Positions 2,552 through 64,000 of a stretch of 64,000 nt of DNA are shown piece by piece. The DNA is taken from the NCBI RefSeq assembly GCF_004293625.1, contig NZ_CP033040.1, positions 248,001 through 312,000 of the forward strand, read 5' to 3'. The number at the start of each line of letters is the position of its first letter. The stretch's first letter is position 1. The position numbers and the translations under genes were made by a program. This DNA comes from Thiomicrorhabdus indica. Lineage in GTDB: Bacteria > Pseudomonadota > Gammaproteobacteria > Thiomicrospirales > Thiomicrospiraceae. The notes under the pieces are model-generated. The model did not search any database and was not told where the DNA came from. It saw only the letters and a program-made list of their open reading frames with translations.

Positions 2552-5500
2552 CTACTGCGCAAAATCTTCAGGGTCATAGCCTAGATTTGGTGCGAGCCAT
2601 TTTTCGGTTTCTTCGATTGACCAGCCTTTGCGGTGAGCGTAGTCTTCGACTTGGTCGCGACCAAGTGAGCCGATACCGAAGTATTTAGACTCTGGGTGTG
2701 AGAAGTAGACACCGGAAACCGCAGCCGTTGGCGTCATGGCGTAGCTAGACGTTAGCTCTAAACCGATTTCGCTATCCGGTTTTAGCAGTTCCCAGATGGT
2801 GCCTTTTTCGGTGTGCTCCGGACAAGCAGGATAACCCGGTGCAGGGCGGATACCTTGGTATTTTTCACGAATGAGTGCTTCGTTGTCCAAGTCTTCATTC
2901 GGCGCATAGCCCCATTCTTCTTTACGCACGATTTCATGCAATGTTTCGGCAAAGGCTTCTGCAAAGCGGTCGGCCAACGCTTTGAGCATGATTGATTTGT
3001 AGTCATCGTGATCGGCTTCAAATTCTGCTGCTTTTTCATCACAGCCGATACCACCAGAAACTGCGAATAGACCGACGTAATCGGCAATTTCAGTGTCTTT
3101 TGGAGCTACATAATCCGACAAGCATTGGTTATAACCGCCGCGTTTTTTCTCCGCCTGTTGGCGTAAGTTGTGCAGTACGGTTAGCACTTCGGTGCGCGAT
3201 TCGTCAGTATAGACTTCAATATCATCGCCAATTGCATTCGCTGGATAGAAGCCGTAAACCGCTTTGGCAGTCAGCCATTTTTCAGAAATGATTTGTTTCA
3301 GCATCGCTTGTGCATCGGCATAGACTTTTTTCGCTTCTTCACCGACGACCTTGTCATCCAAAATGCGAGGGAAGAGGCCGTGTAGTTCCCAAGATTGGAA
3401 GAATGGCGACCAGTCGAAACGTTCCAACAATTTTTCCAACGGGAAGTCTTCAATGACACGTGAGCCAAGGAATGAAGGTTTTACCGGCCGGTAATCTTTC
3501 CAGTCGATTTCAATGCGGTTTTCGCGAGCCTTATTAATCGGTACTCGTTTGACCTGCTTGGCACGAGCTTTACGCTCTTCGCGCACGGTTTCGTATTCGG
3601 CACGAATCTTGGCGGCGAAGTCGACTTTCAGGTCATTGGAAATCAAACTTTGTGCGACACCGACCGCACGCGATGCATCTTTTACGTAAACCACTGGATG
3701 ATCGTATTGCGGTTCGATTTTCACCGCGGTATGCGCTTTGGAAGTGGTTGCGCCACCGATTAACAGCGGCAAGTCCATATTACGTTCTTTCATCAACTTG
3801 GCGACATTGACCATCTCTTCCAGAGATGGAGTGATCAGACCGGAAAGTCCGATGACGTTTGCGCCTTCTTTAACCGCTGTATCAAGAATTTTTTCGGCCG
3901 GTACCATTACACCGAGGTCGATGACTTCAAAGTTATTACATTGTAGTACCACACCCACAATGTTTTTACCGATATCGTGCACGTCACCTTTAACGGTCGC
4001 CATGACGATTTTTCCGTTCGCTTGACCTTCAGTTTTCGCCGCTAGAAGATAAGGGTCAAGATAGGCCACTGCGCGCTTCATGACACGTGCTGATTTAACG
4101 ACCTGCGGCAGGAACATTTTTCCAGAACCGAACAGGTCACCGACCACGTTCATACCGTCCATTAGAGGACCTTCGATGACTAATAGCCCTGAACCGAGTT
4201 TTTGGTAAGCTTCCTCGGTATCTTCTTCGATATAGTCGGTAATGCCTTTGACCAGTGCGTGTTCCAAACGTTTTTCAACGCTTTCTTCACGCCATTTAGT
4301 ATCGGCAACCTTGCTGGCTGCTGTGCCGTCACCACGGAATTCTTCCGCGACTTCTAGCAAGCGCTCTCCAGCTTCAGGGTCTTTGTTGAGAATGACGTCT
4401 TCAACGGCCAGACGCAGTTTTTCCGGTAGGTCATCGTAAATTGCCATTTGGCCGGCGTTGACAATCCCCATGTCCATGCCTTCTTTAATTGCGTAGTAGA
4501 GGAATACCGAGTGAATCGCTTCACGCACCGGATTGTTGCCACGGAAGGAGAAGGAGACATTGGAAACACCACCGGAAATTTTGGCATGCGGTAGATTGGC
4601 TTTAATCCATGTCACTGCATTGATAAAGTCCAGACCGTAGTTATTGTGTTCTTCAATACCGGTCGCGACCGCGAAGATATTCGGGTCGAAAATAATGTCT
4701 TGCGGCAGGAAGCCAACCTTGTCGACTAGCACGCGATACGAGCGTTCGCAGATTTCGATTTTGCGCTCTAGCGTATCCGCTTGACCGTCTTCATCAAAGG
4801 CCATAACAATGGTCGCAGCACCGTATTGTTTGACTTTGCGCGCGTGTTCGATAAAGGCTTCTTCTCCCTCTTTCAGAGAGATGGAGTTGACCACGCCTTT
4901 ACCTTGAATACATTTCAGGCCAGCTTCAATGACTTCCCATTTAGAGGAGTCGATCATAATTGGTACACGCGAGGCTTCCGGTTCGGAAGCCAATAGGTTT
5001 AGGAATTTGACCATGCACGCCTTAGCGTCCAGCATCCCTTCATCCATGTTCACATCGATAATTTGTGCGCCGTCTTCTACCTGTTTAACCGCGATCTCAA
5101 TTGCTTCTTCGTAGTTCTCTTCGATAATCAGGCGTTTGAATTTGGCAGAACCTGTGACGTTGTTCCGCTCACCGACATTGACGAACAGTGTGCTTTCATC
5201 AATGTTTAATGGTTCTAAACCCGATAGGCGACAGGCAGGTTTGACGTTCGGCAAAGTTCGGGCTGGATGTGCCAAAGCAGCGTTTGCCATGGCTTCGACA
5301 TGATCCGGCGTAGTCCCGCAACAGCCACCAATGATATTGATCCAGCCGTGTTCCGCCCAGTGTTTGATTTCTGCCGCCATTTGTTCCGGTGTTTCGTCGT
5401 ATTCACCAAACTCGTTTGGCAAACCGGCATTCGGATGCACGGAAACGTAGGTTTCACAAACACGGCTTAACTCTTGTACATAAGGGCGCAGTTCTTCTGG

Positions 5501-6391
5501 CCCAAGCGCACAGTTAAGACCAACCGACAGTGGTTCAGCGTGAGCCACTGCATTGTAAAAGGCTTCTGTGGTTTGACCACTTAAAGTACGACCGGATGCG
5601 TCAGTGATAGTACCGCTCAACATAATAGGCACTTCTGGGAAAGCGCCTATTTCACTCAGCACTTTGTTGGCAGCCTCACTGCGCTGCTCATTAACTTCAG
5701 TTAACTCTGCTGCTACTTCGGCTGCCGTCGTGTTCTGAGCGAAATATTCATCTTTCCGCTTATGCCACGCTTCGCGTAATTCGTTTTCCACCTCTTTAAC
5801 GGCAAAAATCGCGGCTTTGGCATTGAGGGTATCGAAAATGGTTTCAATTAAAATGGTGTCTACACCGCCTTCTAACAGGGCGCGAGTCGCTTGTTTGTAA
5901 GCTTCGACCAGTTCGTCAAAAGAGGTGTTGCGGTAACCTGGATCATTGACGTCAGGCGAAATGGAAGCGGTGCGGTTTGTTGGCCCAAGCACACCAGCGA
6001 CAAAACGTGGTTTGCCGTCTTCTGACTCGGCAATATCGCAGGCTTCGCGAGCGACTTTGGCACAGGCGAGGTTTAACTCGCTGACATAGTCTTGCATGTC
6101 GTAATCGGCTTGGGCAATCGTGGTCGCGTTAAAGGAGTTCGTCTCAACGATATCGACGCCCTTTCGCAAAAAGTCCAAATGGATGTCGCGAATCACATCC
6201 GGTTTGGTCATCGCCAAGATGTCGTTATTGCCTTTGATGTCCATATGATAATCGGCAAAACGCTCGCCACGGAAATCTTCTTCCGTTAGATTCATATTTT
6301 GAATCATAGTCCCCATAGCGCCATCCAGAATGACGACTCTTTCGGCAAGAAGTGATTTTAAAGTGGCGATACGTTGTGCGCGTGAACTCAT
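2552..6391 (-). CDS. metH: Cobalamin-dependent methionine synthase
   Basis: This 1279-residue enzyme transfers a methyl group from 5-methyltetrahydrofolate to homocysteine via cobalamin. Domains in order: homocysteine/zinc domain about 15-375 with ligands C294, C357 and C358 ('[10 protein letters not shown]'); pterin domain about 395-660; cobalamin cap and binding domain with the lower-ligand motif 'DVHDIG' at 803-808 (H806); and the AdoMet reactivation domain with '[12 protein letters not shown]' near the C-terminus. It is about 50 residues longer than the E. coli enzyme because of a charged helical insertion at about 203-250, inside the homocysteine domain. No cobalamin or SAH riboswitch was recognised upstream. 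The HipA-like gene begins 56 bases downstream on the same strand. Confidence 0.97.
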
Positions 6392-6473
6392 CGGTTTTTA
6401 GCCCCAGAATTAAGTAAGAGCGTGTTAAGCACTCTTGGTAAAAACAAAATTGGGCGCTATTTTAACCGATTTA

Positions 6474-6483
6474 ACCGGCCGGT
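6474..6483. repeat. ACCGGCCGGT palindrome (intergenic copy)
   Basis: This copy of the dispersed ACCGGCCGGT palindrome lies between the metH start and the end of the leftward GGDEF gene. There is no T-run next to it, so it is not an obvious terminator. See the finding on the whole family. Confidence 0.8.
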
Positions 6484-6577
6484 ATAAATTTCGAGTGGCT
6501 GAGGGAATGGGCTGATAAGGCAGTATGCCTTATCTTTTTGGTAGATAGGCAGAATAAGATATTGAATCATTCATTGT

Positions 6578-9150: not shown

Positions 9151-9158
9151 CCGGCCGG
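9151..9158. repeat. CCGGCCGG palindrome (intergenic copy)
   Basis: GCCGGCCGGT, 38 bases after the trmA stop and upstream of the TauE gene. It is a member of the dispersed palindrome family and has no T-run. Confidence 0.7.
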
Positions 9159-9312: not shown

Positions 9313-10077
9313 ATGGTTTTAGCCTGGATTGGCGCCCTCTTTATTGGGATTACACTCGGGCTCTTAGGATCGGGTGGCTCGATTTTGACAGTTCCTGTAC
9401 TGAATTACGTCGTTGGTCAAGAGACAAAAGTGGCGATTGCCGGTTCATTGATGATTGTCGGAATCATCAGTTTGTTTTCGTTGATCCCTTATGCAAAACA
9501 GAAGCTAGTTGATTGGCGAACCGTTTTTATGTTTGGTATCCCTGGAATGGCAGGGGCAGTTTTTGGTGCTTGGACAGCTAACTTTGTCTCAGATGCCATG
9601 CAGATGTTGGTCTTCACGGTATTATTGCTGATCGCAGCCGTTCTGATGTACCGGCCGGTAAAGTTGCAAGATGAAGAGCGAGAAGCGCGTGCATTCTACA
9701 AAATCGCAATTGATGGTTTTGTGGTGGGCGGTGTCACGGGATTGGTTGGTGTCGGCGGCGGCTTTTTGATTATTCCCGCGTTGGTTTTACTTGGCGGATT
9801 GTCAATGCGTATGGCTGTGGGAACCAGTTTGGTGATTATTACAGCGAAGTCGTTTGCTGGATTTGTTGGCTATCTTCCGGTGTTAGAAAAGCTGAATCTG
9901 CAGCTCGACTGGAACATTATTTTGATTTTCTCAGCGATTGGTATTTTAGGGGGGTGGATTGGCCACAAGATTAGTTCTAAGGTCGATCAAAATGCTCTGA
10001 AAAAAGGGTTCGCGCTCTTTATGGTGCTAATGGGATTGTTCATTTTGTATAAGAATTTACCAGCGCTAATCGGCTAA
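9313..10077 (+). CDS. TauE/SafE-family anion (sulfite-type) exporter
   Basis: A 254-residue polytopic inner-membrane protein with about eight hydrophobic segments. It shows the family's internal duplication: 'GLLGSGGSILTVPVL' near residue 18 and 'GLVGVGGGFLIIPALV' near residue 145. Family members move sulfite, sulfoacetate or related anions, which fits a sulfur oxidiser, but the substrate is not determined by sequence. AGGAG precedes the ATG. A near-palindrome TATAAACGTTTTATA (9261-9275) containing a TATAAT -10-like hexamer lies upstream and may combine promoter and operator. The gene stands alone and ends in a strong terminator. Confidence 0.85.
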   Translation: MVLAWIGALFIGITLGLLGSGGSILTVPVLNYVVGQETKVAIAGSLMIVGIISLFSLIPYAKQKLVDWRTVFMFGIPGMAGAVFGAWTANFVSDAMQMLVFTVLLLIAAVLMYRPVKLQDEEREARAFYKIAIDGFVVGGVTGLVGVGGGFLIIPALVLLGGLSMRMAVGTSLVIITAKSFAGFVGYLPVLEKLNLQLDWNIILIFSAIGILGGWIGHKISSKVDQNALKKGFALFMVLMGLFILYKNLPALIG

Positions 10078-11278: not shown

Positions 11279-14164
11279 ATGAGCTTCTTTAGGAATCGCT
11301 TAAAAATTGGTTCGGTTGGCTTGCTGATTGTTTTAATGACATTGGTTTTGGCTATTGGATATCAGCTTCTAGTTGAAAAAGAGCGGCAGCTTTTAGATAA
11401 GACCTTTCAGCAAATACAAAAACAAGCAGAACATCAGTTACTCTCGCTTATTGATGAAAAGCAGAGCTCCTCCAAAAGTATAGCTATTTCATTGGCCCAC
11501 AACTCCAAAATTATTGATCTATTCGCTTCCTCAAACCCTTCAAATTATGTTTTGAAAAACATGGCAAATCAGTTATCTCAAGTGGATGAGTACAAGAATA
11601 TTTGGGTGCAACTCATTGATCAAAACGGGGTTGCGATTGCCCGAAGTTGGACAGAAAGTGTTGGGCAGAATCTCAGTAAAATCCGTCCGGATTTGCAAAG
11701 TTTTCTTGAGCAGCCAAGAGTGCTGACTGGCATTAGTATTGGGAATTATGATTTAAGCTTCAAAGCGATGGTGCCTATATATAATCATAGAGGTGAATTT
11801 CTCGGTTTGTTAGAGGTCATTACGCATTTTAACTCGATTGTTGAAAGGCTTAGAAAAGAAGGTTTTGATAGTCTGATTCTTGCCCAGGAAAGCTACTTCT
11901 CTCAAATTAAGCATCCGTTCACGAATACATTCGTCGGTAAGCGCTATGTCGCGAACCTTAACGCTAATCAGGAAGATATTGAGTTATTTAATGAACTTAA
12001 TTTGAATTCGGTCGAATTTGAAAGTTACTTCTATGCGCAAGATCAAAACAGGGTTGTTTTTTCCATTCCTATTATGGGGAAAAACAATGAAAAGCTGGCG
12101 GATTACTTTATTTTCAAGCCCATCACCGACATTGATTTCAGCCTTATCCGTGTTCAAACCAATAATATTAAGTTGGCCGTAGCGCTAACATTAGTGGTTT
12201 TATTCATTCTTTTTTATGCATTAGGTTTGAAACGCCAACCAAACCTTAAACATCAAAAATCGAAATTCAAAGTTTTTATTGCGCTTTTCATTGTCTTGAT
12301 GCTTATCAGTGCAGCGGCTTTCTATGCGTCTTATTTAAAAGAACGTGAAGCTTATTTGGAAATGCATAATCAATCCATTAACAAAAGCTATGAAATTATT
12401 AAAGACAAATATCAATCGGTTGCATTGACGACGTTACAGCTTCTCATTAATAAACAGAGCGTTATTGATTTAATGGAGCAAGCTTATAATGGCGAGCAGA
12501 GTAAAGCTTTTGTTCGCCAAGAGCTACAAAACCTTTTGAACGAGGATTATGAAGTTCTGAGGGGCGGTAACTTACGGCAACTGCACTTTCATCTGAGAAA
12601 CAATGAGAGTTTATTAAGAATGCACCGGCCGGCGAAATTTGGTGACAATTTAACCGGTATACGCAAAACCGTTGAATATGTGAACCGAACCTATCAAGCC
12701 ATTCATGGTTTTGAAGAAGGGCGAATTTTTAATGGTTACCGTTATATTTTTCCAATCACTCAGCATGCAGGTACTCCGAGTGAGCAGCATTTAGGCTCCG
12801 TCGAAGTCTCTTTTAGTCCATATGCGATTGCACAGGATTTTGCAAAAACATTTGGCATTAACTCTGAGTTTATTATCAAAAAATCAGTCGTCGAGGAAAA
12901 AGTGTTTGAAAGCGAGAGGGACAACTATATTCAATGCTTGTTTCCAAACTATGCCTTCGATAGGGAGATGCAGGCTAAGCTAAAAAGCGGTGCGCATTGC
13001 GCCAATATTGACAATCAATTTGTTGATATTGGAAAGCTTGAAAATCAAATTGATAAAGGAAAGGTCTTTTCCGTTGAGTCGTTCGATGGACAGAAATTGT
13101 TTACTTTGATTCCTTTAAGCAACCCCGTTACGGATAAGGTTGTTGCTACCTATATTTTGGTTGACCAGAATGATGCGTTGCAGAATATTAAATCGCACTA
13201 TTTGCTGATGTATTTAATCGGCTTAGTCATTATTGCCTTAACGCTTGCCTTTGTTTTCAAGGAATGGATGAATGCTCAAAATGCTCGGCAGATGTCTCAA
13301 AAGACCCAACAGATTTTGGATTCGCAAAAATCGATTGTGGTAATCAATGACGGGGAAGATATCATCAATGTTAACCAAGCATTTCTAGATTTTTTTGAAG
13401 TTGAATCTTTAGATCAGTTTAAACAGATGAGCCACTGTATCTGTGACCATTTTCGGCGGAATGATCGTTTTTTCCATCTTGGAAAAGTACCCGAAGGTAC
13501 TTCGTGGTTAGAGTTTGCTATGACGTTGAAGCATTCTGAACGAATGGTGCAAATGGCAAATCATAAAGGGGAAGATTGTATTTTCAACTTTAGTCTTTCA
13601 AGATTTTCTGAGGGACGATTTATCATTGGTTTCAATGATATCACCGACACGATGCTTGAACACTTTGAGCTGGAAAACCGAGCGACGACTGACTATCTGA
13701 CGGGGGCTCGAAACCGAAGTTATTTGAATCATGTGCTTCCTGTACTTCGCGATATAACAAAACAAGCGAACAAGTCGCTCGGTTTGATTTTGTTTGATAT
13801 TGATTATTTCAAATCCTTTAATGATAGCTATGGCCACAATCTGGGGGATGATATTCTTAAAGAAATCGTCGTCTTGGTAAAACGTACCATACGAGATGAA
13901 GATCTATTGATCCGCTGGGGAGGCGAAGAATTCATTTTGGTGGTTAAGATTCATGATATCCAGAGTGCAGAGCGCATTGCAGAAAATCTTCGCCAAGTGA
14001 TTGCCGCGCATGAATTCTCAGAGGGCTTGAAGGTCACCTGTAGCTTTGGAGTGACCTTGGATAATGATGCGTTTGAGATTGAGGACATGATTCAAATTGC
14101 GGATCAAGCACTATACAAATCCAAAGATAATGGCCGCAATTGCGTATCTGTCAAAATCAACTAG
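11279..14164 (+). CDS. Membrane diguanylate cyclase with two periplasmic sensor domains and PAS
   Basis: A 961-residue inner-membrane protein. Predicted order: TM about 10-32; first Cache-like sensor about 45-290; a TM pair about 296-318 and 333-352, leaving a very short cytoplasmic loop; second sensor region about 355-635; TM about 640-662; PAS about 680-790; GGDEF about 800-961. GGEEF is at 881-885, and the product-inhibition motif RDED at 872-875 sits at the correct spacing, so feedback inhibition is expected. Two consecutive periplasmic sensors in one cyclase is unusual and may come from fusion of two receptor ends. Only a weak AGGTG ribosome site is seen. It appears monocistronic. Confidence 0.88.
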   Translation: MSFFRNRLKIGSVGLLIVLMTLVLAIGYQLLVEKERQLLDKTFQQIQKQAEHQLLSLIDEKQSSSKSIAISLAHNSKIIDLFASSNPSNYVLKNMANQLSQVDEYKNIWVQLIDQNGVAIARSWTESVGQNLSKIRPDLQSFLEQPRVLTGISIGNYDLSFKAMVPIYNHRGEFLGLLEVITHFNSIVERLRKEGFDSLILAQESYFSQIKHPFTNTFVGKRYVANLNANQEDIELFNELNLNSVEFESYFYAQDQNRVVFSIPIMGKNNEKLADYFIFKPITDIDFSLIRVQTNNIKLAVALTLVVLFILFYALGLKRQPNLKHQKSKFKVFIALFIVLMLISAAAFYASYLKEREAYLEMHNQSINKSYEIIKDKYQSVALTTLQLLINKQSVIDLMEQAYNGEQSKAFVRQELQNLLNEDYEVLRGGNLRQLHFHLRNNESLLRMHRPAKFGDNLTGIRKTVEYVNRTYQAIHGFEEGRIFNGYRYIFPITQHAGTPSEQHLGSVEVSFSPYAIAQDFAKTFGINSEFIIKKSVVEEKVFESERDNYIQCLFPNYAFDREMQAKLKSGAHCANIDNQFVDIGKLENQIDKGKVFSVESFDGQKLFTLIPLSNPVTDKVVATYILVDQNDALQNIKSHYLLMYLIGLVIIALTLAFVFKEWMNAQNARQMSQKTQQILDSQKSIVVINDGEDIINVNQAFLDFFEVESLDQFKQMSHCICDHFRRNDRFFHLGKVPEGTSWLEFAMTLKHSERMVQMANHKGEDCIFNFSLSRFSEGRFIIGFNDITDTMLEHFELENRATTDYLTGARNRSYLNHVLPVLRDITKQANKSLGLILFDIDYFKSFNDSYGHNLGDDILKEIVVLVKRTIRDEDLLIRWGGEEFILVVKIHDIQSAERIAENLRQVIAAHEFSEGLKVTCSFGVTLDNDAFEIEDMIQIADQALYKSKDNGRNCVSVKIN

Positions 14165-14775: not shown

Positions 14776-17343
14776 ATGAAAAATCTAAGTATTGCGCAAC
14801 GACTGTGGCTGAACCTGTCATTGGGTGTTTTGATTACATTAGTCATTGTTTACAGTGGTTTGAGTGGACTTTTTAAGGCTCAATCGGCTTCTCAATCGCT
14901 TATTGAATTGCAAGCAACGGATGTTGTACCTGTTAACCAACTTACCCATTCTTATCGCCAAATGATTGATCAGATGATGAATGCATTACTCAATCGAACT
15001 GATGCAGCACAGCAGGCGTTTTACTCTCGTAGCGAATCTTTTCGAGAAGAGTTGGTCAATTTATTTGAATCAAAAGGTGTTGAGCTGGCTTTGGATAATA
15101 ATGGTTATTACCGGCCGGTAAAGAACTCAGTAGATTCTCAAAATGAGGCTTCAGAGTTAAATCCAGTACAACTTGAAGCGCAAGCCGAAGTGCTGCTTAA
15201 TCCCACAAAATCTTTGTTGAATGACGTTTTGCAGGTGGATCCTATTCTGTTGGATTTACGAAAGGTGGTGGCTAGTTATCTTTTTTTGAGAAAAGATATT
15301 GAAAATACCTATGAATTCGGTATTGAAACCAGTCTTCGCAATATGGAGAAACAGCTCCAGTCGTTGAGCCTAAGTGACTATGTACAAGACTCATCCGAGC
15401 TCCTTTCGTTGTCCGAAACGCTTTTAAACAAGCTTGAGGAATCAAAACGATTAGCGCCTTTGTATTTGGTTTCAAATAACCCAGATGTTTTGCAAAATTT
15501 TCACCAGAAAGGCTTAGGAGATTCGGCAGATAAGATCATTGAACAATTTTCTGAATCGTTGGCCAGTGCTTTTTTATTGCAAGAGAGTCTTGAAGGGTTT
15601 GTAAACTCTCGTGACAGCTTGGTAGAAAGCATGCATGACATTCGTGATGCGATGCACACTGCACAAGAAAATAATCAGACGATTTATACGCTTATCAATC
15701 AAGGGCAGAGCCTTTTTGACAAAGTTAGCGGTGATTACCAGCAAAAGAGTGTTCATGCCTTGGATGAGGTGGAAGTGTTGGCTGGCGATCGAATCGAATG
15801 GATGTTATGGATTGCTGTGGTTGGTTTGCTGTTGATGCTGATCATTAACTTTATTTTCTTAAATTCGATTACGCAACCCTTGTCTAAAATGAAAGCTAAA
15901 GTGCGTAATATGCAGCAAACAATGGTGTTTGATAGCTGGTCACCGGCCAAAGGGCGTAATGAATTAACGGATATGGAAAATGTAATCGGTGAGCTTTTGC
16001 AAACTTTTTCCAGTTCTATGAAGGAAGTGATTTCAACCAGTGAGGCGATGGCGCAAGGTGATTTGAATTTGACGTTATCGAATGATTATCGTGGTGACCT
16101 CAAAAAAATGGCAGACCACTTCAATCAAAGCTTGTCTTATATTCAACAGACATTGAATGAAATCGAAGAAGTCAGCCATGCTTTGGCACAAGGCAATTTA
16201 AAGTATCAAATTGCCGTTGATGCGTATCCAGGACAATATCAAGTGGTTTTGAGAAGTTTACAGCGAGCTTTGAAACAACAGCGACAGGCAATAGAGGAAG
16301 TACAAGTTATTTCCAAGACCATGGAGCAAGGTGACTTTTCTTGCCGAATTGAGAATGAGATGCCGGGAGATTTAGCAAACCTCAAGCTTCACTTTAATGA
16401 TGCGTTGGATAATTTAGAGTCTGCCATTTTGCAAAAAGTAACCGCATTGCAAGCCTATAGTCAGGGGGATTTCTCGTATGAAATGGAAGGTGAGTTCCAA
16501 GGACGTTTGTATGAGCTAAAAGACCACATGGGTAATATGGCAACGAAAATCAGTCTGATGTTAGAAGAAGTAAAAGCCTCAACATTAAAGGCGGAAACAG
16601 GAGTGGCGGAAATCAGTCAAGGAAATGAAGAATTGAATCAGCGTGTTCTAAAACAAGCTGGATTTATACAAAAAACCTCAGCGCGAATGGGCACGATGAT
16701 GACCTTTTTGGAAGGCAGTTATCAGCAGTCGAATGAAATGGCAAAAGCTTCTTATTCGGTAAAAGAATCCTCGAATTCTGGTTTAGCCACCATTGATGAA
16801 ATGGTCAATGCCATGCAGCAAATTGAAGCGGCCAGTCAACAAATTTCTTCCATGACGGAGGTGATTGACAGTATCGCCTTTCAAACAAATTTATTGGCTT
16901 TAAATGCTTCGGTGGAAGCTGCGCGTGCAGGTGAAATGGGGCGTGGTTTTGCAGTGGTTGCGCAAGAGGTCCGAAGCCTTGCGAATCGATCAAGCGAGGC
17001 ATCGAAACAAATTCGACAGGTTACGGCAGATACCTTGGAAAAAGTGTCAGTTGGTATGGATTTAACCTCAAAAACTCAGCAGATTTTTGGCAAGAACGCA
17101 CAGAATATTGAACAGATTGCCAACCAAGCATTAAAAATGCAGAATTCGATTGAGCATCAAAACGAGTCGATTTCTGAGGTGAATCAGTCATTGTTGGAAA
17201 TTGAACAGACAACGCAAGCCAATGCAGAGTTGGTTGAACAAGTGACAGCGACATCGGCTGAAATTATTGATCAAATGGGTGGGTTGCAAGATAAGGTTAT
17301 GCAGTTTCAACTTAAGGAAAAACCTGCAATGACTTTGTCATAA
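14776..17343 (+). CDS. Methyl-accepting chemotaxis protein
   Basis: An 855-residue transmembrane chemoreceptor. TM1 is about 10-30, a large helical periplasmic domain about 31-340 has no Cache signature that I recognise, and TM2 is about 342-362. It is followed by HAMP and further HAMP-like repeats about 365-580 ('[11 protein letters not shown]', '[10 protein letters not shown]', '[10 protein letters not shown]', '[10 protein letters not shown]' mark four repeats). The signalling hairpin about 590-845 has the conserved tip '[20 protein letters not shown]'. Poly-HAMP receptors of this kind relay through CheA/CheW. No che genes are in the window. Translation may be gated by the hairpin described at 14744. 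Confidence 0.92.
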
Positions 17344-17991: not shown

Positions 17992-18018
17992 ACCGGCCGG
18001 TAAATGATACCGGCCGGT
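17992..18018. promoter_or_regulatory. Tandem ACCGGCCGGT palindromes between the MBL-fold gene and tetR
   Basis: Copies at 17992-18001 and 18009-18018 lie 17 bp apart centre to centre, between the MBL-fold gene stop (18046) and the TetR start (17970). TetR dimers bind short palindromes, so these could be the regulator's operators. The same palindrome is scattered through the window, so the local meaning is uncertain. Confidence 0.45.
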
Positions 18019-21196: not shown

Positions 21197-21793
21197 TTAG
21201 GGCTTTTTACCAACAAACCAACTGTAGCGATATTTCGGTGCGTCCTGTTGAATTGAATCATTCAACCAGCCTTCGCCATTGATCAAGCATTGCAGGTTTT
21301 TGAAAGATTGTGTGAGTTCGCCGCTTTTAAGGTAAAAATCTGGATTTTTGGGTGCATTTTCCTGCATGGGTTCTAAAAAACTCTGATAGAACAATAAACC
21401 ATTCGGCTTTAAGGCTTGTTCAATTTGTTTGAAGAGTTTTCGGTCAAGATAGCGGCTGACGACAATGACATCGTATTGCTGATAAGGCAGAAGCATCTGT
21501 TTAAGATCGGTTAGGAGTGGCTGAATCGGCAAGTGATTTAAACTCGCCCAGTTGTTTAGTATGGTGAGAGCGTTATCTGAAATATCCCAAGCATCAACCT
21601 TTAGACCGCATTGTGCTAAAAATCGTGCATTTCCACCCAAGCCACAAGCCAAATCAAGCGCTTTGCCATAAAACGGTAAAAGGTGGCTGTGCTCCTTCAA
21701 TGCATAGCATGGAGTCGTTGGAGTGTTCAAATCACTGTCAGAATATTTCAAATCCCATTTTTCACCGGCCGGTAGAGTTTTGTTTTTTGTCAT
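21197..21793 (-). CDS. Class I SAM-dependent methyltransferase (TehB-like)
   Basis: A 198-residue protein with the SAM-binding motif I 'ALDLACGLGGNARFLA' near residue 46, then 'VDAWDIS' (motif II acidic) and 'YDVIVVSRYLD' (motif IV). The size and sequence resemble small TehB/UbiE-like methyltransferases. Substrate unknown. It is the last gene of the long leftward run, 16 bases after trkH. Confidence 0.82.
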   Translation of the reverse strand: MTKNKTLPAGEKWDLKYSDSDLNTPTTPCYALKEHSHLLPFYGKALDLACGLGGNARFLAQCGLKVDAWDISDNALTILNNWASLNHLPIQPLLTDLKQMLLPYQQYDVIVVSRYLDRKLFKQIEQALKPNGLLFYQSFLEPMQENAPKNPDFYLKSGELTQSFKNLQCLINGEGWLNDSIQQDAPKYRYSWFVGKKP

Positions 21794-39521: not shown

Positions 39522-39546
39522 AACCTACCGGCCGGTAGGTTTTTTG
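39522..39546 (+). terminator. Intrinsic terminator built from the ACCGGCCGGT palindrome
   Basis: AACCTACCGG-CCGGTAGGTT is a perfect 20-base palindrome followed by more Ts, in the argS-SPOR gene gap. The genome-wide palindrome forms the centre of the stem here. Confidence 0.75.
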
Positions 39547-45777: not shown

Positions 45778-46959
45778 CTATAGGCTTTGTTTCATTGCAT
45801 TAATCAGCACTTCATTCGGCAAGCTCACCACATTTCCAAGCATGCTGCCTGAACGACAATTATCTATTACCGGCTGAAGATTGTCTGCCGTTAGGCCATA
45901 TTGTCCCAGACCTTGTGGCGTGTAGGTTTGGGCGTAATGCTTGAGTGTCAGAATCAAATCCTCAAGCGTCTCACCGTCAAACAGTTTGGCAATTGTTTGG
46001 TATTTATCGAGTGTTGATTTCGCCAATTCGCTACTGTTCTTGTGCAAAGCTTCGATATTCGCTTGCGTGATGGGAGCAAGAAGTTTGGCGCACACTATGC
46101 CATGTGGTGCTTCAAAGAATGCCCCGATTGGGCCGGCTAGGCCATGAACGGCTCCTAAGCCGGCATTAGCAAGTGTCGTTCCAGAGAGAGTCGCAGCAAG
46201 CATGAGGTTGCTATAGCCCATGTTTTGTTCGGTTTCTTTATCAGAGTCAATGGCTTCAAACGCGCCTTTGAACAGTTTCATGCCTTGAAGCGCGAGTGCA
46301 TCGGTAATGGGGTTGGCATTTTTTGTGGTGTAGCTTTCCAATAGCTGAGTAAAAGCATCCATTCCTGTGGCGTATAAAACATCTTTCGGACAGCTTTTTA
46401 ACAGTTCTGGATCAAGCCAGACTGATCTGGCGAGAAGTTTATTGTCGCGAAACGATTTTTTAAAATAGCCAATGCGCGATAAAACCGCGTTTTTGGTGGT
46501 TTCTGAGCCTGTACCTGCGGTGGTTGGAACGGCGATAAAAGGACAAGTTTCAACATTGAATGGTTTGCCTGCGCCAACGCCTTCAAGGTAGTCCATCACC
46601 GAAGTTTGACTGGGAATTAGGCCTGCGACAGCTTTGGCGGCATCGAGAACACTGCCTCCACCGAGTGCAACCACTGCCGTGGAATCTGCATCACATTTCA
46701 AGACGATTTCATCCACTAGATCCGGTGAAGGTTCACCGCTGACAATAAAATGTTGAATCGTATGTGATTGGCTTAAGGTTTCTAAAAGCTCCGCTCCAAA
46801 TTGCCCTGTTTGAGAAATTGACCGGCCGGTCAAAAGCACTAATTTGCCAGCATAATTTTTTTGTAAGAACTCTGATAATTGGCTGCGAATGCCTAATCCA
46901 AAATGCATTTCAGGGTGCGTTGCAAAACTAAAGTTGGCAATAGGATGATTTGAGTACAT
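45778..46959 (-). CDS. Iron-containing alcohol dehydrogenase family protein
   Basis: About 393 residues. The NAD-binding region has 'VALGGGSVLDAAKAVAG' and the family block 'VPTTAGTGSETT'. Metal ligands are suggested by 'GMDAFTQLLES' and 'GLGAVHGLAGPIGAFFEAPHG'. The start at 46959 is supported by GGAG seven bases upstream; the longer frame to 47031 would run into a repeat. Substrate unknown; members reduce aldehydes or oxidise alcohols. Confidence 0.9.
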   Translation of the reverse strand: MYSNHPIANFSFATHPEMHFGLGIRSQLSEFLQKNYAGKLVLLTGRSISQTGQFGAELLETLSQSHTIQHFIVSGEPSPDLVDEIVLKCDADSTAVVALGGGSVLDAAKAVAGLIPSQTSVMDYLEGVGAGKPFNVETCPFIAVPTTAGTGSETTKNAVLSRIGYFKKSFRDNKLLARSVWLDPELLKSCPKDVLYATGMDAFTQLLESYTTKNANPITDALALQGMKLFKGAFEAIDSDKETEQNMGYSNLMLAATLSGTTLANAGLGAVHGLAGPIGAFFEAPHGIVCAKLLAPITQANIEALHKNSSELAKSTLDKYQTIAKLFDGETLEDLILTLKHYAQTYTPQGLGQYGLTADNLQPVIDNCRSGSMLGNVVSLPNEVLINAMKQSL

Positions 46960-49241: not shown

Positions 49242-49251
49242 ACCGGCCGGT
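49242..49251. repeat. ACCGGCCGGT palindrome upstream of rep
   Basis: TACCGGCCGGTA followed by TCTTTTTTT on the plus strand, between the divergent rep and methyltransferase genes. The T-run makes it terminator-like on the plus strand, but no gene reads into it from that side. Confidence 0.7.
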
Positions 49252-51791: not shown

Positions 51792-52799
51792 ATGATGCAG
51801 AGTCTATGGAATATACGTTTTGCAGGATTAGGGTTAGCCTTGGTTGCAATTATGTTGATGACATTCAGTCAGTTTGCGGAGGCAAAGCGACTGGGTGGTG
51901 GGAAGAGTTTTGGTTATCAAAAGCAGGTGGCGCCTAAGAGTTTTAATAATCAAAAAGATAATAAATCCTCACAAACAACACCGGCCGGGCAAAATGGTAC
52001 GGCAGCTGGTACAGCTGGAGCAGGCACGGCGGCCGCAGGAACTGCTGCCAAATCTGGTGCCTCAAAATGGCTTGGACCTTTGGCAGGATTAGCAGCCGGT
52101 GGACTTTTGGCGGCGATGATTTTTGGGGATGGATTTGAAAATCTTCAAATTTTGGATATTCTAATTTTTGCGTTAATCGCCTTTTTGTTGTTCAAACTGT
52201 TTATGTCCCGCAAACGTGCGCAACAAGCTCAAGAGCCTGCTTATCAAGGCTATCAGCAGCGAGCGCCTGACAATGTGGCGCAGCGTGAGATGCCACAAGA
52301 ATCACCAGCTCCGCAAGTCCGTCAGACACATAAGGATCAGCCTGCTTACAACCCAAATGAAGGGGGGTCGATTTTTGGTGCAGATTTGGGCGAAAGTCCA
52401 ACGCAGAATGCACAGCCGGTATCTCAAGCGCCTGAATGGTTTGATGCAGATGGCTTTATAGATGGATCGAAATCTCACTTTCTTGCGTTGCAATCTGCGT
52501 GGGATCAGGTGGATTTATCTGCCTTGGAATCCTACTGTACGCCAGAGCTTTATAAAGCTTTAGAAGCTGAATTAGAAGGTGTCCAAGCAGGTGAAAATCA
52601 TACGAAAGTAGAAGATTTACAGTCTGAAATTGCGGCAATGTCGGTTGAAAATGACTACTTTTACGTGAGTGTGCGTTACAGCGGATTTATGGATGAAGAT
52701 GGGCAAGGTGCGCACGCCTTTACGGAAATTTGGCACATTCGTCGACTTGCTGAAGGCGAAGGTAACTGGGCACTTGCAGGAATACAGCAAAACCACTAA
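51792..52799 (+). CDS. Tim44-domain membrane protein
   Basis: A 335-residue protein: N-terminal signal or anchor about 10-30 ending 'AEAKR', a Gly/Ala/Thr-rich linker, a membrane hairpin about 92-140 ('LAGLAAGGLLAAMIFG', 'LDILIFALIAFLLFKLFM'), a Gln/Pro-rich linker, and a C-terminal Tim44-like domain about 215-335 ('FIDGSKSHFLALQSAWDQVDLSALESYCTPELY', 'YVSVRYSGFMDED', 'FTEIWHI'). Bacterial Tim44-like proteins are poorly characterised envelope proteins. Position 51981 holds a CCGGCCGG copy in the linker. Confidence 0.82.
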   Translation: MMQSLWNIRFAGLGLALVAIMLMTFSQFAEAKRLGGGKSFGYQKQVAPKSFNNQKDNKSSQTTPAGQNGTAAGTAGAGTAAAGTAAKSGASKWLGPLAGLAAGGLLAAMIFGDGFENLQILDILIFALIAFLLFKLFMSRKRAQQAQEPAYQGYQQRAPDNVAQREMPQESPAPQVRQTHKDQPAYNPNEGGSIFGADLGESPTQNAQPVSQAPEWFDADGFIDGSKSHFLALQSAWDQVDLSALESYCTPELYKALEAELEGVQAGENHTKVEDLQSEIAAMSVENDYFYVSVRYSGFMDEDGQGAHAFTEIWHIRRLAEGEGNWALAGIQQNH

Positions 52800-53441: not shown

Positions 53442-54668
53442 ATGACTCAAGATTCCACAAGTAATTTCGACCGGCCGGTAGAGTTTATTAAATCGGAGAT
53501 GGCTGACGAAGCGGCTTTTTCCGCTTTAAATTATGCAACACAAGCGCCAGTGGTGAGCGGTTATCTACGTGTTAAACCAGAAGATTTTTTGGTTGAAGAG
53601 CAGATTGCCTACGATCTTTCTGGGGACGGCGAACATTTGTGGATTTGGGTAGAAAAAACCGGCGAAAACTCGGATTGGGTTGCTGGAGAATTGGCCAAAT
53701 GGGCGGGTGTTTCCAAGAAAAACGTTGGGCTGGCGGGCCAAAAAGACCGTCATGCAGTGACGCGACAGTGGTTTAGTATTACTTTGCCCGGTAAGCCGAA
53801 TCCAGATTTCGACGCCTGGCCTCATGACACTGTACGTTTGTTAAAACATTGCCGTCACCAGCGCAAATTGCAAAAAGGTGGTTTGAGTGGCAACCAGTTT
53901 GTCATTCGTCTACGAGGTCTGCAGTCGGTTGATCAAAGAACTCTACCGGCCGGTGAATTACAAAATAATATTGAACAGCGAATCCATTTTATTCGTACCC
54001 AAGGTGTTCCAAACTATTTTGGTGAGCAGCGTTTCGGCCACTCTGGAAATAATTTACGAAAAGCGATTGCGTGGTTGGTTGAAGGAAAATCAATGCGAAT
54101 GAAACCAAATCAGAGAAGTTTGTATTTATCTGCTATGCGTTCGTGGGTGTTTAATCAATATTTGAGTGCTCGGATTGAGGCGGGTATTTGGGATCAATAT
54201 ATTTCAGGCGATGCGCTAAATTTGCAAGGATCCAGTCGTTGGTTTGTGGAGACGGATGGCTCTGAGATTGAGAAGTTGCCGCAACGAGTTTCTTCGGGCG
54301 ATTTGCATCCAACTGGACCTTTGATTGGCGAGGGTGATTTGCCGGTGATGCAAGAAGCGAAAGCTCTGGAAGAGGCACTTTATGAAACCTTTCGTGATTG
54401 GTTTGAAGGGTTGAAAAATCAACGGTTAAAGGCGGATAGACGTGCGCTCAGACTACTGGTCTCAAGTGAGCAGCATGCGTTTAATTATCGTTGGCTTGAA
54501 GCCGATAATACGAGTTTTTTAGAAAATGATGAGGATTTCAAAGAGCAAGGGTTGCCGGATTTAGAACTCAGCTTTTTCTTACCGGCCGGTAGCTTTGCTA
54601 CCATGGTTTTGCGTGAAATTGTGCAGGTAGTGGATTATCAAAAGAAACTAAAATTTGTAAAAAAATAA
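53442..54668 (+). CDS. truD: tRNA pseudouridine(13) synthase
   Basis: About 408 residues. The catalytic Asp lies in 'GLAGQKDRHAVTRQW', the family's GxKDxxAxT motif. 'FVIRLRGL', 'VPNYFGEQRFG' and the terminal 'PAGSFATMVLREI' blocks are also typical. The TRUD insertion domain covers about residues 170-300. The ATG at 53442 is favoured because AGGA lies upstream at good spacing; the longer frame to 53388 begins next to the terminator. Three CCGGCCGG copies (53471, 53946, 54582) fall in this gene, the densest set in the window. Confidence 0.95.
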   Translation: MTQDSTSNFDRPVEFIKSEMADEAAFSALNYATQAPVVSGYLRVKPEDFLVEEQIAYDLSGDGEHLWIWVEKTGENSDWVAGELAKWAGVSKKNVGLAGQKDRHAVTRQWFSITLPGKPNPDFDAWPHDTVRLLKHCRHQRKLQKGGLSGNQFVIRLRGLQSVDQRTLPAGELQNNIEQRIHFIRTQGVPNYFGEQRFGHSGNNLRKAIAWLVEGKSMRMKPNQRSLYLSAMRSWVFNQYLSARIEAGIWDQYISGDALNLQGSSRWFVETDGSEIEKLPQRVSSGDLHPTGPLIGEGDLPVMQEAKALEEALYETFRDWFEGLKNQRLKADRRALRLLVSSEQHAFNYRWLEADNTSFLENDEDFKEQGLPDLELSFFLPAGSFATMVLREIVQVVDYQKKLKFVKK

Positions 54669-57850: not shown

Positions 57851-58294
57851 TTATTTTTGATAGAGCGTTTTAGGGTCAATTAGCGGCTCGGAAGTAATGG
57901 TGGCTTTATCGCCTTCGACAAGCGTGTAAAAACAGCTACGTCGACCTGTGTGGCAAGCAGGGCCTGTTTGATCGACGAGTAATAAAATTGCATCGCCATC
58001 GCAGTCAAAGCGTAGTTCTTTTAGGACTTGAATTTGCCCTGATTCTTCGCCTTTTCGCCAATAGTTTTGACGCGAACGAGACCAATAACATACCCGGCCG
58101 GTAGCAAGTGTTTCTTGCAAGGATTTTTCGTTCATCCATGCCATCATCAATATTTCTTTAGTATCGTGTTGTTGTGCAATGGCCGGAATTAAGCCGTCTT
58201 GGTCAAATTTGACTGCTTTTAAAACGTCTTCCCATGCAAACTCATCGCCTATCTTAGCCTTTTCAAGGGTTTTAAAATTCAGTGAATCACACAT
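57851..58294 (-). CDS. hisI: Phosphoribosyl-AMP cyclohydrolase
   Basis: A 147-residue enzyme for the third step of histidine synthesis. Conserved blocks: 'MMAWMNEKSLQETLATGRVCYWSRSR', 'WRKGEESG', and the zinc/magnesium site in 'DCDGDAILLLVDQTGPACHTG' with 'SCFY'. There is no HisE domain. It is isolated from other his genes, and the 3' end follows a bidirectional terminator. A CCGGCCGG copy (58094) is inside. Confidence 0.96.
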   Translation of the reverse strand: MCDSLNFKTLEKAKIGDEFAWEDVLKAVKFDQDGLIPAIAQQHDTKEILMMAWMNEKSLQETLATGRVCYWSRSRQNYWRKGEESGQIQVLKELRFDCDGDAILLLVDQTGPACHTGRRSCFYTLVEGDKATITSEPLIDPKTLYQK

Positions 58295-59607: not shown

Positions 59608-60762
59608 TTAGATTTCATTCTTTGCAAAGAGGTTTTCAGCATAATGATGAAACAATTTGTGCAGACTTTTTAGCAGAAGTTGTTGGCGCATGGGCAGGTG
59701 GGCGCAGTAGTAGCCGGTGAATTCCATTGCTGCTATGCCTCCACGCTGCTTTTTAAAGTGCGCGGCGCCGGAGCTTAAGTTCAAAAGTTGATGTCGTTCG
59801 TGGGCAATTTTTAATAACTGGGCAATGGTTAAACGATAAAGTCCCATGGATTTAGGCAGTGTCGTGTCATAGCCGACAATCGGCATGGTTAAAATGTTGT
59901 TGTGAGTGAAGAGTCCCATTGTGGCGACAATTCTCCCTTCGTCATTCCGAAAGCTAAAAAATTCCACTAGCTTATTTTTATGCAGTTGTTGTAGGTATTC
60001 GGTGGAATATTGAGGGTTATGTTGCGAGTGTTTTTCAATATAGAGTTGGTAAAAGCATTTTTGAATGTCTTTAAAGTCTACCGGCCGGTGTTCTTTTGGC
60101 GTGACCAAACTCAAAGGTGTTTTTCTTAAAAGTCGCCAATCGTTTTTGACATTATTTTTTTTCCACCAGTTCGTTTCATTCGGAAATAAGTACACTTGGC
60201 GAGCCGGTAGCATTAACCAACCCAATGATGTGAGGTCTTGAATAAGTTGGCCGTCGCACTCGCTATTCAGTGAGCGAATACTGAGGCTGTGTTTAGGATG
60301 TTGTTGGCTGAGTGTTTGAGTTAATTTTTGTAATGTGTCTTTACTCGTCGCTGGAAAGGGGCAAGTGGAAAAAAGCCAGTTGTTCAAGCTAAGAGTTTGA
60401 TTAATCTTGCCCCATTTCAATGCAGTCGAAAATATGGGAAAAGTCGCTTTGATTAAGGTTCTCTGCATCGGATTTTTAATTAGATGTAATTCTTCCGATG
60501 CGTAATCAATATAGGCGTTATAGGCTGAGCAAACATAGCTATTACGATAGTCGGTTTGGTTTTTAGCCACAGGGATTGAAATTTCGTTGAACGAATAAAC
60601 GTTCAATTCTGTGGCAATATTGGCAATCGCATTTGGTAAGGTCTGCTGAAAAGCGTCGATAAACTGCTGAGTTTTTTTCGCAAGCGCGGCATTCACAGAG
60701 TCATTAGAACGGGTTAAATTTTCGTTAACCTCCACATCGAATTCGATTGGGTTTTGCGTCAT
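59608..60762 (-). CDS. GNAT/FemAB-like acyltransferase partner of the BtaA-type enzyme
   Basis: A 384-residue soluble protein. The C-terminal half looks like a GNAT/FemAB fold: 'FFSFRNDEGRIVATMGLFTHNN' (core strands), 'LPKSMGLYRLTIAQLLKIAHE' and 'NLSSGAAHFKKQRGG', a pattern common in peptide or lipid N-acyltransferases. The N-terminal half is not recognised. It begins three bases after the BtaA-type gene, with GGAG at good spacing, so the pair is an operon. In bacteria making DGTS, the gene after btaA is normally the methyltransferase btaB; here this gene takes its place. N-acylation of the homoserine lipid is an inference. Confidence 0.65.
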   Translation of the reverse strand: MTQNPIEFDVEVNENLTRSNDSVNAALAKKTQQFIDAFQQTLPNAIANIATELNVYSFNEISIPVAKNQTDYRNSYVCSAYNAYIDYASEELHLIKNPMQRTLIKATFPIFSTALKWGKINQTLSLNNWLFSTCPFPATSKDTLQKLTQTLSQQHPKHSLSIRSLNSECDGQLIQDLTSLGWLMLPARQVYLFPNETNWWKKNNVKNDWRLLRKTPLSLVTPKEHRPVDFKDIQKCFYQLYIEKHSQHNPQYSTEYLQQLHKNKLVEFFSFRNDEGRIVATMGLFTHNNILTMPIVGYDTTLPKSMGLYRLTIAQLLKIAHERHQLLNLSSGAAHFKKQRGGIAAMEFTGYYCAHLPMRQQLLLKSLHKLFHHYAENLFAKNEI

Positions 60763-62323: not shown

Positions 62324-63181
62324 TTGAAGCCTGATTGCATTTTTACCGACATGGATGGCACTGTTTTGGGGCATTCTGATTATGAATATGCGCCAGTCTT
62401 GCCAGTGTTGGAACAGTTAGCTGAAGAGGGAATTCCTGTGGTGGTGAATTCGAGTAAAACCTATGCGGAAATCGCTACTTGGCTAGAAAAACTTAATTTA
62501 GAACCTCCATTTATTTCCGAAAATGGCGGGGTGATTTATTTACCCAGTCGGGCACAAGGACCCATACAGGCACAAGTACCCATACGGGCACAAGTACCGG
62601 CCGGTAACAAACAGATACTGGGAACACCTTACCCACAAATTCGTGCTTTTATGCAGCAGGTTAGAGAAGAATTTGATTGGCAGTTTGAAGGCTTTGGCGA
62701 TATGTCGGTTGATCGAGTCGTAGAAACGACTGGGTTGGCGACAAAAGATGCAGAGCAAGCGATGCAACGAGAAGTGACTGAACCGATGTTGTGGCATGAC
62801 TCTGAAGAGTCGCTTGAGGCTTTCATTCAATTGGCTGAGAGGACCGGGTTGCAAGTCGTCCGAGGGGGGCGTTTTTATCATGTCATGGGTCAGCATGATA
62901 AAGCAAAAGCGATGAACTGGTTGTTGACTGAAAGTGGTTTGCTTGGGCAAAAGCAGCGTGAAAATGTATGTGTTGTCGCATTGGGTGATGGCAATAATGA
63001 TCGAGCAATGTTAGAAGCCGCTGACATTGCAGTGGTGTTACCGGCCGGTAACTTTTCAAGTTTGGAGATTGATGCCAAGCCTGATGGTTACCCTAAACAA
63101 GTGATTTATGCACAAAAAGCTGCCCCGGAAGGTTGGGCGGAAACAGTCAGACGAATCTTGAAAGATTTGAAGGGTAGATAG
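62324..63181 (+). CDS. Mannosyl-3-phosphoglycerate phosphatase (HAD family)
   Basis: About 285 residues of the HAD-IIB/MpgP family. HAD motif I is 'FTDMDGTVL', motif II 'VVNSSKT', motif III Lys in 'DKAKAMNWLL', and motif IV 'ALGDGNNDRAML'. It dephosphorylates mannosyl- or glucosyl-3-phosphoglycerate to give the compatible solute. The TTG at 62324 is chosen because AAAGGAG lies five bases upstream. Residues about 76-93 are encoded by three tandem 18-bp units. It is followed by a glycosyltransferase that would supply its substrate. Confidence 0.88.
   Translation: MKPDCIFTDMDGTVLGHSDYEYAPVLPVLEQLAEEGIPVVVNSSKTYAEIATWLEKLNLEPPFISENGGVIYLPSRAQGPIQAQVPIRAQVPAGNKQILGTPYPQIRAFMQQVREEFDWQFEGFGDMSVDRVVETTGLATKDAEQAMQREVTEPMLWHDSEESLEAFIQLAERTGLQVVRGGRFYHVMGQHDKAKAMNWLLTESGLLGQKQRENVCVVALGDGNNDRAMLEAADIAVVLPAGNFSSLEIDAKPDGYPKQVIYAQKAAPEGWAETVRRILKDLKGR
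62549..62602. repeat. Three tandem 18-bp repeats inside the phosphatase gene
   Basis: Units start at 62549, 62567 and 62585 and share the pattern C(R)GGCACAAGKACCCATA; the third ends in a CCGGCCGG copy. They encode RAQGPI, QAQVPI and RAQVPA in frame. This fits a recent in-frame expansion in a surface loop. Confidence 0.75.
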
Positions 63182-63198
63182 GTCACCGATAAAAGCTT

Positions 63199-63220
63199 CG
63201 CATTGCATGGATGCAATGCG
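63199..63220. repeat. Inverted repeat after the phosphatase gene
   Basis: CGCATTGCAT and ATGCAATGCG pair perfectly around GG. There is no T-run, so it is not a standard terminator. Confidence 0.5.
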
Positions 63221-63327
63221 CAGAGTGGTTATGGATGACGAACAACGTCTTTTAGCAATGACCTATCTGCCGGTGAGAAATAGTCAATATTAGAGATCAA
63301 TTGATTAACCAAAATGAGGGTGTAACA

Positions 63328-63384
63328 ATGTGTTTGCTTTATCAGCGTTTTAGCGCGTTTTTGAGTTTGCACCTGAGGTGTTAG
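63328..63384 (+). CDS. Possible 18-residue leader ORF
   Basis: An ATG preceded by GAGGGTG opens 18 codons ending at a TAG at 63384, 33 bases before the glycosyltransferase start. The product is hydrophobic and Leu/Phe-rich. It could be a translated leader or chance. Confidence 0.2.
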   Translation: MCLLYQRFSAFLSLHLRC

Positions 63385-63417
63385 TCAAAAAAATAGAAAT
63401 TATATAGAGGATTTGAG

Positions 63418-64000
63418 ATGAGTGATTTTTTTCAGAATGGGACTGTAACGACTTTTCATAATCTAACTGACCGGCCGGTTGAAAGTTTAGAAGAGGAGTT
63501 AATTAAGTTTTCCGAAACCCGAAACATGGGATTGATTCTTCCGTCACTGTTCAGTGAATTGGAAATGCCAGCCCTGAAAAACATTGTTGAAGAGTTAAAA
63601 AAAGTTCCTTATCTCTCCGAAATTGTTATTGGCTTAGATCGTGCAGATAAAGAGCAGTTTGAATTCGCAAAAAAATATTTTTCCGAGCTGCCTCAAGAGC
63701 ATCGCATTATCTGGAATGACGGCCCACGTGTGACAGCGATTATGGATCGTTTAAAAGAGGAAGGTCTTGCCCCAACCGAACCGGGTAAGGGTACCAATGT
63801 TTGGGGGTGTTATGGCTATGTGCTGGCATCGAAAAGGGCAAAAGTGGTTGCTTTACATGATTGTGACATTGTCACTTATTCACGTGATTTATTGGCACGA
63901 CTCATCTATCCGGTCGCTCATCCTAACTTCAACTTCACCTTTGCTAAAGGCTACTACGCCCGACACGCCGATGGAAAGTTAAATGGTCGTGTTGCGCGAT
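63418..64000 (+). CDS. Glucosyl/mannosyl-3-phosphoglycerate synthase-like glycosyltransferase (partial)
   Basis: The first 194 codons of a gene cut by the window edge. AGAGGA precedes the ATG. 'MGLILPSLFSELEMPALKNIVEELKKVPYLSEIVIGLD' reads as the start of a GT-A fold, and the nucleotide-sugar DxD motif is in 'VVALHDCDIVTYS'. The layout fits GT81-type GpgS, which joins a sugar to 3-phosphoglycerate. Its position after the matching phosphatase supports this. Glucose versus mannose cannot be told. A CCGGCCGG copy (63471) encodes 'DRPVE' near the start. Confidence 0.8.
   Translation, partial: MSDFFQNGTVTTFHNLTDRPVESLEEELIKFSETRNMGLILPSLFSELEMPALKNIVEELKKVPYLSEIVIGLDRADKEQFEFAKKYFSELPQEHRIIWNDGPRVTAIMDRLKEEGLAPTEPGKGTNVWGCYGYVLASKRAKVVALHDCDIVTYSRDLLARLIYPVAHPNFNFTFAKGYYARHADGKLNGRVAR

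Follow-up and report, generated by a model that had tools for sequence, protein, structure and literature searches.

The 64-kb window considered here (the whole stretch of DNA analysed, 64,000 nucleotides, from position 248,001 to 312,000 of contig NZ_CP033040.1 of the gammaproteobacterium Thiomicrorhabdus indica) is scattered with copies of an 8-bp palindrome, CCGGCCGG, whose candidate role as a DNA uptake sequence is the subject of this analysis. A sequence-only reading of the window had listed 34 copies, and every position proved exact, as did the statement that 26 of the 34 extend to ACCGGCCGGT. Seven copies are intergenic, as claimed, namely those at 6475..6482, 9151..9158, 17993..18000, 18010..18017, 31728..31735, 39528..39535 and 49243..49250; the copy at 39528 sits in a stem that resembles a terminator, with a run of T after it. 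Twenty-seven copies had been placed in genes. For 26 of them this holds, as they lie in listed open reading frames (ORFs): one within dprA (33292..33299), one within topA (35516..35523), two within comM (42678..42685 and 43149..43156), and the others at 3484..3491, 9651..9658, 12625..12632, 15111..15118, 20345..20352, 21765..21772, 25452..25459, 29449..29456, 30802..30809, 31012..31019, 40009..40016, 44595..44602, 44896..44903, 46822..46829, 51981..51988, 53471..53478, 53946..53953, 54582..54589, 58094..58101, 60081..60088, 62597..62604 and 63041..63048. The last copy (63471..63478), near the window end, has no gene assignment. Two competence-related genes, which are context outside the motif proper, were correctly named as well: dprA at 32356..33531 (+ strand; TIGR00732 above cut-off) and comM at 42166..43749 (+ strand; TIGR00368, YifB family, above cut-off), the latter being a yifB gene whose product we take to be ComM.

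The palindrome is far more abundant than composition would allow. The guanine-plus-cytosine (GC) content, estimated at about 43%, was measured at 42.6% in the window, and the prediction of well under one chance copy agrees with the 0.25 copies expected from 100 dinucleotide shuffles, the largest of which held 2. The genome (G000) is a single contig of 2,829,883 bases (2.83 Mb). It contains 1217 copies of CCGGCCGG against 22 of the reversed control word GGCCGGCC, so the motif is by no means confined to the window, and 1025 copies of ACCGGCCGGT against one of its control word. In a 464-kb sample composed of the window and 20 spread 20-kb stretches, 212 sites were found, each palindrome being tallied once per site by halving the both-strand counts; Markov models of order 1, 3 and 4 expect about 1.8, 4.7 and 19. 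The usage of CCGG and GGCC therefore does not account for the motif. Taken together, the shuffles, the control word and the Markov models rule out chance or base composition as the source of its density, and the suggestion that selection or spread acts on the DNA itself is well supported. The over-representation reaches the one to two orders of magnitude expected of uptake sequences. Judged by TopA, the nearest relatives with a name belong to Thiomicrorhabdus. Among the 31 congeners, ACCGGCCGGT occurs 0–15 times each, with the highest tally of 15 in G013 and G024, where the control word occurs 3 and 2 times, respectively. Across the 58 genomes tallied (G058–G082 were left out), the dense ACCGGCCGGT set is private to the species of G000.

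The element extends well beyond its 8-bp core. At the 212 sampled sites, the full consensus on either side of the dyad reads CCGG-T-A-A-A-n-W-T-T: the core is followed by T at 91% of sites, then by A, A and A at 59, 61 and 51%, one loose position, and an A/T tract ending in TT. The whole measures about 24 bp and is two-fold symmetric on average, with AT tracts 10–12 bp from the centre. The outermost A/T positions tolerate variation, and the flanks are near background beyond about 13 bp from the centre, which argues against a longer repeated element. Both flanks obey one rule and vary almost independently of each other (flank-score correlation 0.10). An oriented pattern concealed in the palindrome flanks was considered and rejected, as the 71 log units gained compare with 46–65 in eight re-paired controls; asymmetry of the element is at most a hint.

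The siting of the copies relative to genes is not random. Outside ORFs, 57 of the 212 sampled copies were found, about twice the 25.3 expected from ORF coverage. Within the intergenic set, convergent gaps are favoured (18 of 57 copies, although such gaps make up just 9,031 of 52,897 intergenic bases) and divergent gaps are disfavoured (6 of 57 copies in 11,376 bases), and 23 of the 57 have four consecutive T or A nearby. The 155 copies inside ORFs fall in all three frames, as had been noted for the window, where the frame reading Pro-Ala-Gly accounts for 12 copies and the other two for 9 and 5; in the larger sample the frames hold 96, 34 and 25, Pro-Ala-Gly again being the most frequent. Coding copies sit in variable stretches of protein. 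Compared with G024, identity is 49% in the 20 residues round a site and 62% gene-wide (20 sites); for G009 the values are 44% and 62% (17 sites), and the direction is the same in all three comparisons made besides that with G024. An excess in intergenic and permissive coding places is likewise a feature of uptake sequences. Copies are spaced slightly more evenly than at random (coefficient of variation 0.85, in stretches that end at 20 kb and so cut long gaps), and regular spacing was rejected as unconvincing. At 17993–18017 of the window, two full copies stand 17 bp apart between two genes. Neighbouring copies less than 50 bp apart make up 7 of 191 distances against 4.9 expected, with no clear excess of such pairs.

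Related species carry related words, here called dialects. These were discovered through k-mer counts in 20 congeners, of which 19 were sampled over 20 kb and one over 4.8 kb; several yielded a sister palindrome, CAGGCCTG, often extended as ACCAGGCCTGGT. It occurs at 236–1173 copies in 32 of the 62 genomes of the order, in which the reversed word occurs 0–28 times; the carriers comprise 15 genomes of the genus, 7 of 11 in g6, all 9 in g5 and the single one in g3. The 8-mers CCGGCCGG and CAGGCCTG differ by two bases, and G000 holds just 12 copies of the latter. Furthermore, related words that are not palindromic, CCCARCCTGGCAGATTTT and ACCCGGCCTGTTGAGTTT among them, are found in five of the 62 genomes. 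Their consensus, drawn from samples of g6 and of G021 with 11 to 19 sites each, is MCCCAGCCTGGCAGATTTT in G063, CCCCAACCTGGCAGATTTT in G068 and G064, and ACCCGGCCTGTTGAGTTTT in G021. The degenerate pattern CRRCCTGKYRRR, counted on both strands, occurs 501 times in G021, 356 in G063, 373 in G064, 401 in G068 and 282 in G004, the last of which is assigned to this class by pattern count only; the other 57 genomes hold at most 87. Altogether, some form is present in 38 of the 62 genomes, and by the patterns used none is present in 24, including 14 of the 32 in the genus. De novo sampling of eight of these 24 revealed no further dialect in G003, G011, G013, G014, G024, G026 and G031 (60–160 kb each), the eighth, G020, being swamped by a repeat array. 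Small samples may miss a dialect, as 24 kb of G027, with 522 copies of CAGGCCTG genome-wide, revealed nothing. Four small genomes of genus g28 (G071–G074), counted among the 24, show a weak CAGGCCTG excess of 35–67 copies against 7–31 of the reversed word, perhaps a remnant or yet another dialect.

Most dialects are built on a common plan. In most of those sampled, a half-site consists of a GC-rich core followed by a T-tract, in a register from the core centre that places A/R about 8 bp out and the T-tract about 10–12 bp out. The two g5 genomes sampled keep ACCAGGCCTGGT with no clear T-tract, and the non-palindromic forms have the tract on one side only. A GGCC centre is common to the palindromic dialects and absent from those of G063, G064 and G068. 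Uptake sequences, too, have dialects with a shared inner part in related species. The non-palindromic forms have an orientation that can be followed along the chromosome: it was mixed in 13 of the 17 20-kb stretches of G063, G064, G068 and G021 with more than one site (small counts). With both orientations present in most stretches, a KOPS- or Chi-like polar motif is disfavoured.

The history of the sites was followed in coding regions near the window locus, aligned gene by gene among six CAGGCCTG genomes, with gapped and unaligned sites left out; the comparisons overlap in sites and are not independent. Among these six genomes (15 pairs, one direction), the partner carries the identical word at 130 of 183 aligned coding sites, against 3–14% for control GC-rich 8-mers. 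At the sites of these relatives, G000 has CAGGCCTG or CCGGCCGG at none of 64 (control 8-mers are identical in 4–6%), and G024, in which no dialect was detected, has either at none of 71. Conversely, in 73 alignments of G000 sites with the six genomes, the relative had CAGGCCTG in none and CCGGCCGG in one, and in 17 with G024 neither word was found. Conversion of CAGGCCTG sites into CCGGCCGG in place was thus not seen at any aligned coding site despite the two-base difference, and was rejected. In a tree of RsmB and Fmt from 30 genomes (G004 and G019 were not included), G000 stands on its own branch of 0.26 changes per site at an unresolved fork, and the four motif classes need five changes where three is the possible minimum. 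Since CAGGCCTG is carried by other genera too, we infer that it is probably the older form, that several lineages would have lost it, and that G000 would have built a new set.

Stretches without the motif include DNA that looks acquired. An 11.2-kb stretch of G000 (1,649,248–1,660,451), picked post hoc as motif-free, has no copies against about 4.8 expected and contains an integron integrase (TIGR02249 above cut-off) with a run of small same-strand ORFs. In the extracted locus (L014 1–10450, G000:C1:1650001–1660450), the integrase lies at 8194–9048 beside the one-strand array of small ORFs, and the stretch is probably a chromosomal integron. Similarly, among the 37 stretches of 20 kb sampled from CAGGCCTG genomes, one, also picked post hoc, lacks that word, against 8.4 copies expected. 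This stretch of G030 (L183, G030:C1:1227001–1247000) is a defence island encoding Wadjet JetA, JetC and JetD, a fused BsuBI/PstI-type restriction-modification gene, a GmrSD domain and a PDC-S28 helicase. A short ComM-like ORF adjoins it (18300–19322, − strand), which suggests that the island is inserted in comM. Both absences fit a word that is lacking in incoming DNA, with the reservation that both were chosen after the fact. In the G000 sample there are seven motif-free gaps above 6.5 kb, one with the integron integrase and one with an rve-type transposase gene. A gap of 16 kb, seen among the first 100 CCGGCCGG places, is by our reckoning about the longest that chance would allow among 1217. 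Within it lie two MauG-like di-haem peroxidases beside an MbnP protein (L196 8704–12759).

These features are likely to be explained by an uptake function: ACCGGCCGGT would be the core of a DNA uptake sequence of the DUS type or uptake signal sequence (USS) type, in a dialect that, among the genomes counted, this Thiomicrorhabdus species shares with no other. The transformation machinery would include a surface DNA receptor with a preference for motif-bearing DNA, and fragments from kin would be taken up and recombined more often. This bias in uptake and recombination would let the motif build up at all places where the gene product can bear it. Sister species would do likewise with other dialects. 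The uptake function, the receptor and the manner of the dialect switch are parts of the best explanation that we infer. On the best reading, uptake sequences would account at once for how dense the words are, for their dialects, for their permissive siting and for the copies that resemble terminators; all four are described for DUS (PMC3630211).

Comparison with known systems reveals likenesses and differences. As far as we know, two bacterial families, Pasteurellaceae and Neisseriaceae, have firmly established uptake sequences. In the former, the extended USS, AAAGTGCGGTCAATTTT and AACAAGCGGTCAAATTT, have a core with CGGT at its end, followed by CAA or CAAA and next by TTT(T), according to excerpts of PMC12616744. 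By the same excerpts, the element of T. indica resembles them in its GC-containing core ending in GG or GGT with an AT or T tract within about 3–5 bp, in its over-representation and in having dialects in related species (PMC12616744); the likeness of layout was judged by eye and carries no statistic. Unlike the USS, it has other core letters, several perfectly palindromic dialects with a tract on both sides and at most a weak second distal AT tract, and it belongs to another gammaproteobacterial family. Like Neisseriaceae DUS, as far as the extracts of the two sources go, the words show lineage-tracking dialects and permissive and intergenic siting, also near terminators (PMC3630211), and they may share with DUS an atypical distribution in mobile elements (PMC7371117). 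Unlike in Neisseriaceae, there is no ComP_DUS match above cut-off, the AT flanks are part of the motif, and there are palindromic dialects.

A wider proposal is favoured with less assurance, though we lean towards it: the Thiomicrorhabdus/Hydrogenovibrio family would possess a separate, previously unrecorded uptake-sequence system of at least five dialects, some of which would have acquired two-fold symmetry, a single site then presenting two half-sites. In one species, the ancestral CAGGCCTG set would have disappeared, and about 1000 copies of a new word would have been built up again elsewhere. No earlier account of these words, or of uptake sequences in these genera, was recognised among the matches listed in the literature (mostly titles and abstracts, with few subscription journals), nor was one of this motif among those listed for highly iterated palindromes in Proteobacteria. 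The excerpts of PMC3757466, which names Thiomicrospira, do not bear on the subject, and PMC6501319 contains none of the competence terms sought in it.

Several observations weigh against an uptake role. Known DUS and USS are, to our knowledge, not palindromic. In the 464-kb sample, words that differ from the 8-bp core by one base stay at background level, with no enrichment, and graded enrichment of near-matches is expected around uptake sequences, though as a model prediction and not by definition, in an excerpt of PMC1939737. The arms of genic palindromes extend by a mean of 1.50 bases against 1.28 in re-paired flanks (standard deviation 0.07), which hints that symmetry is under selection, something not accounted for by a monomeric receptor. 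In the five other motif-free gaps above 6.5 kb, the scanned genes were ordinary or without a Pfam match. Among the matches listed in the literature search, none was found with data on DNA uptake or transformation in these bacteria. With regard to the machinery, comEC, dprA and yifB/comM are all present in G000; dprA- and comM-type genes are common in bacteria without uptake tags and hence weak evidence alone. ComEC was found in 56 of the 62 genomes of the order, motif-bearing and motif-less alike, so its presence is uninformative as a discriminator of tagged species and the competence genes alone do not decide. No sequence-specific receptor was found in G000 by way of ComP_DUS or GspH, the proposed ComN/PpdA not having been searched for. 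The Pfam family ComP_DUS is above cut-off in none of the 62 genomes and also in none of 14 controls, which leaves the sensitivity of the search unproven, and GspH matches three of the 62, all without a detected dialect and G000 not among them. Lastly, a signal-motif scan of 562 kb of sampled sequence gave no convincing prepilin, the one match having no pilin look.

Among the explanations offered by the sequence-only reading, the uptake sequence is the best supported, in view of the dialects, their common half-site and T-tract, the lack of copies in the integron stretch and the defence island, and the competence genes. A nucleoid protein that requires a palindrome, also on its list, is at odds with the non-palindromic dialects. 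A broader version, in which a chromosome-organising or DNA-repair or recombination protein binds as a dimer to the 24-bp dyad about 1000 times per genome with a recognition that drifts between species, is unlikely, though it deserves the most weight after uptake. The average dyad symmetry of the element, its AT tracts about one turn from the centre, the slightly longer genic arms (1.50 against 1.28) and the slightly even spacing (0.85) would all suit it. However, the dialects of G021, G004, G063, G064 and G068 are not palindromic (for G004 as judged from the pattern count), which means that the dialects do not have a dimer site in common. Moreover, 14 of the 32 genus genomes lack a dialect by the patterns used, and the orientation is mostly non-polar. 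The absence from the defence island would be unexpected for a structural site, although recent arrival could explain it.

The second alternative, a palindrome generated in the manner proposed for cyanobacterial HIP1, by a methyltransferase together with a methylation-dependent mismatch-repair bias, is considered improbable. The likeness to HIP1 and the alternate HIPs is real, as those too are highly iterated GC-rich palindromes of similar density with alternates in related species, in the excerpt of PMC4390886. Explanations of this type require a methyltransferase (PMC4390886, likewise in excerpt), and the lack of any match to PF00145, PF01555 or PF02086 in G000 argues against such a cause; the three families matched in 10, 11 and 4 of 14 control genomes, and adenine-methylase families were not searched for. 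PF00145 and PF01555 were sought in G000 only and PF02086 across the 32 genomes of the genus. Six of these match PF02086, of which five carry a dialect, a point in favour, whereas 13 of the 18 dialect-bearing genomes, G000 included, lack it. The non-palindromic sister dialects are a further difference from HIP1.

A different mark on the DNA, for instance phosphorothioation at the central GGCC, or signalling related to restriction is less probable still. The GGCC centre is common to the palindromic dialects, and phosphorothioation is known to occur near GGCC. Nevertheless, the dialects of G063, G064 and G068 have no GGCC, and we know of no marking system that enriches its own sites. Transcription terminators or small mobile palindromes can practically be dismissed, for although some intergenic copies form terminator-like stems (39528), 23 of 57 lie near a four-T/A run and the copies lean to convergent gaps, 155 of the 212 sampled copies are genic, the intergenic arms are no longer than re-paired flanks (2.04 against 1.97 bases), and flanks near background past about 13 bp leave no longer repeated element.

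If the uptake interpretation is true, these bacteria would provide a third set of uptake sequences, with many sequenced species, several dialects within one genus, species without a detected dialect and a wholesale change in one. Researchers could then study the origin, change and loss of uptake specificity, and the receptor would be findable by genome comparison. Additionally, the words would offer a simple means of reading acquired islands in these sulfur-oxidising autotrophs.

A few other repeats were observed in the sampled loci. CRISPR-like arrays with a spacing of about 60 bp are present in G000 (L007 5493–8073, 44 repeats) and G020 (L160 9922–15624, 96 repeats). In G064, a tandem repeat with spacings of 30–288 bp (L202 8854–14230) is perhaps the gene of a repeat protein.

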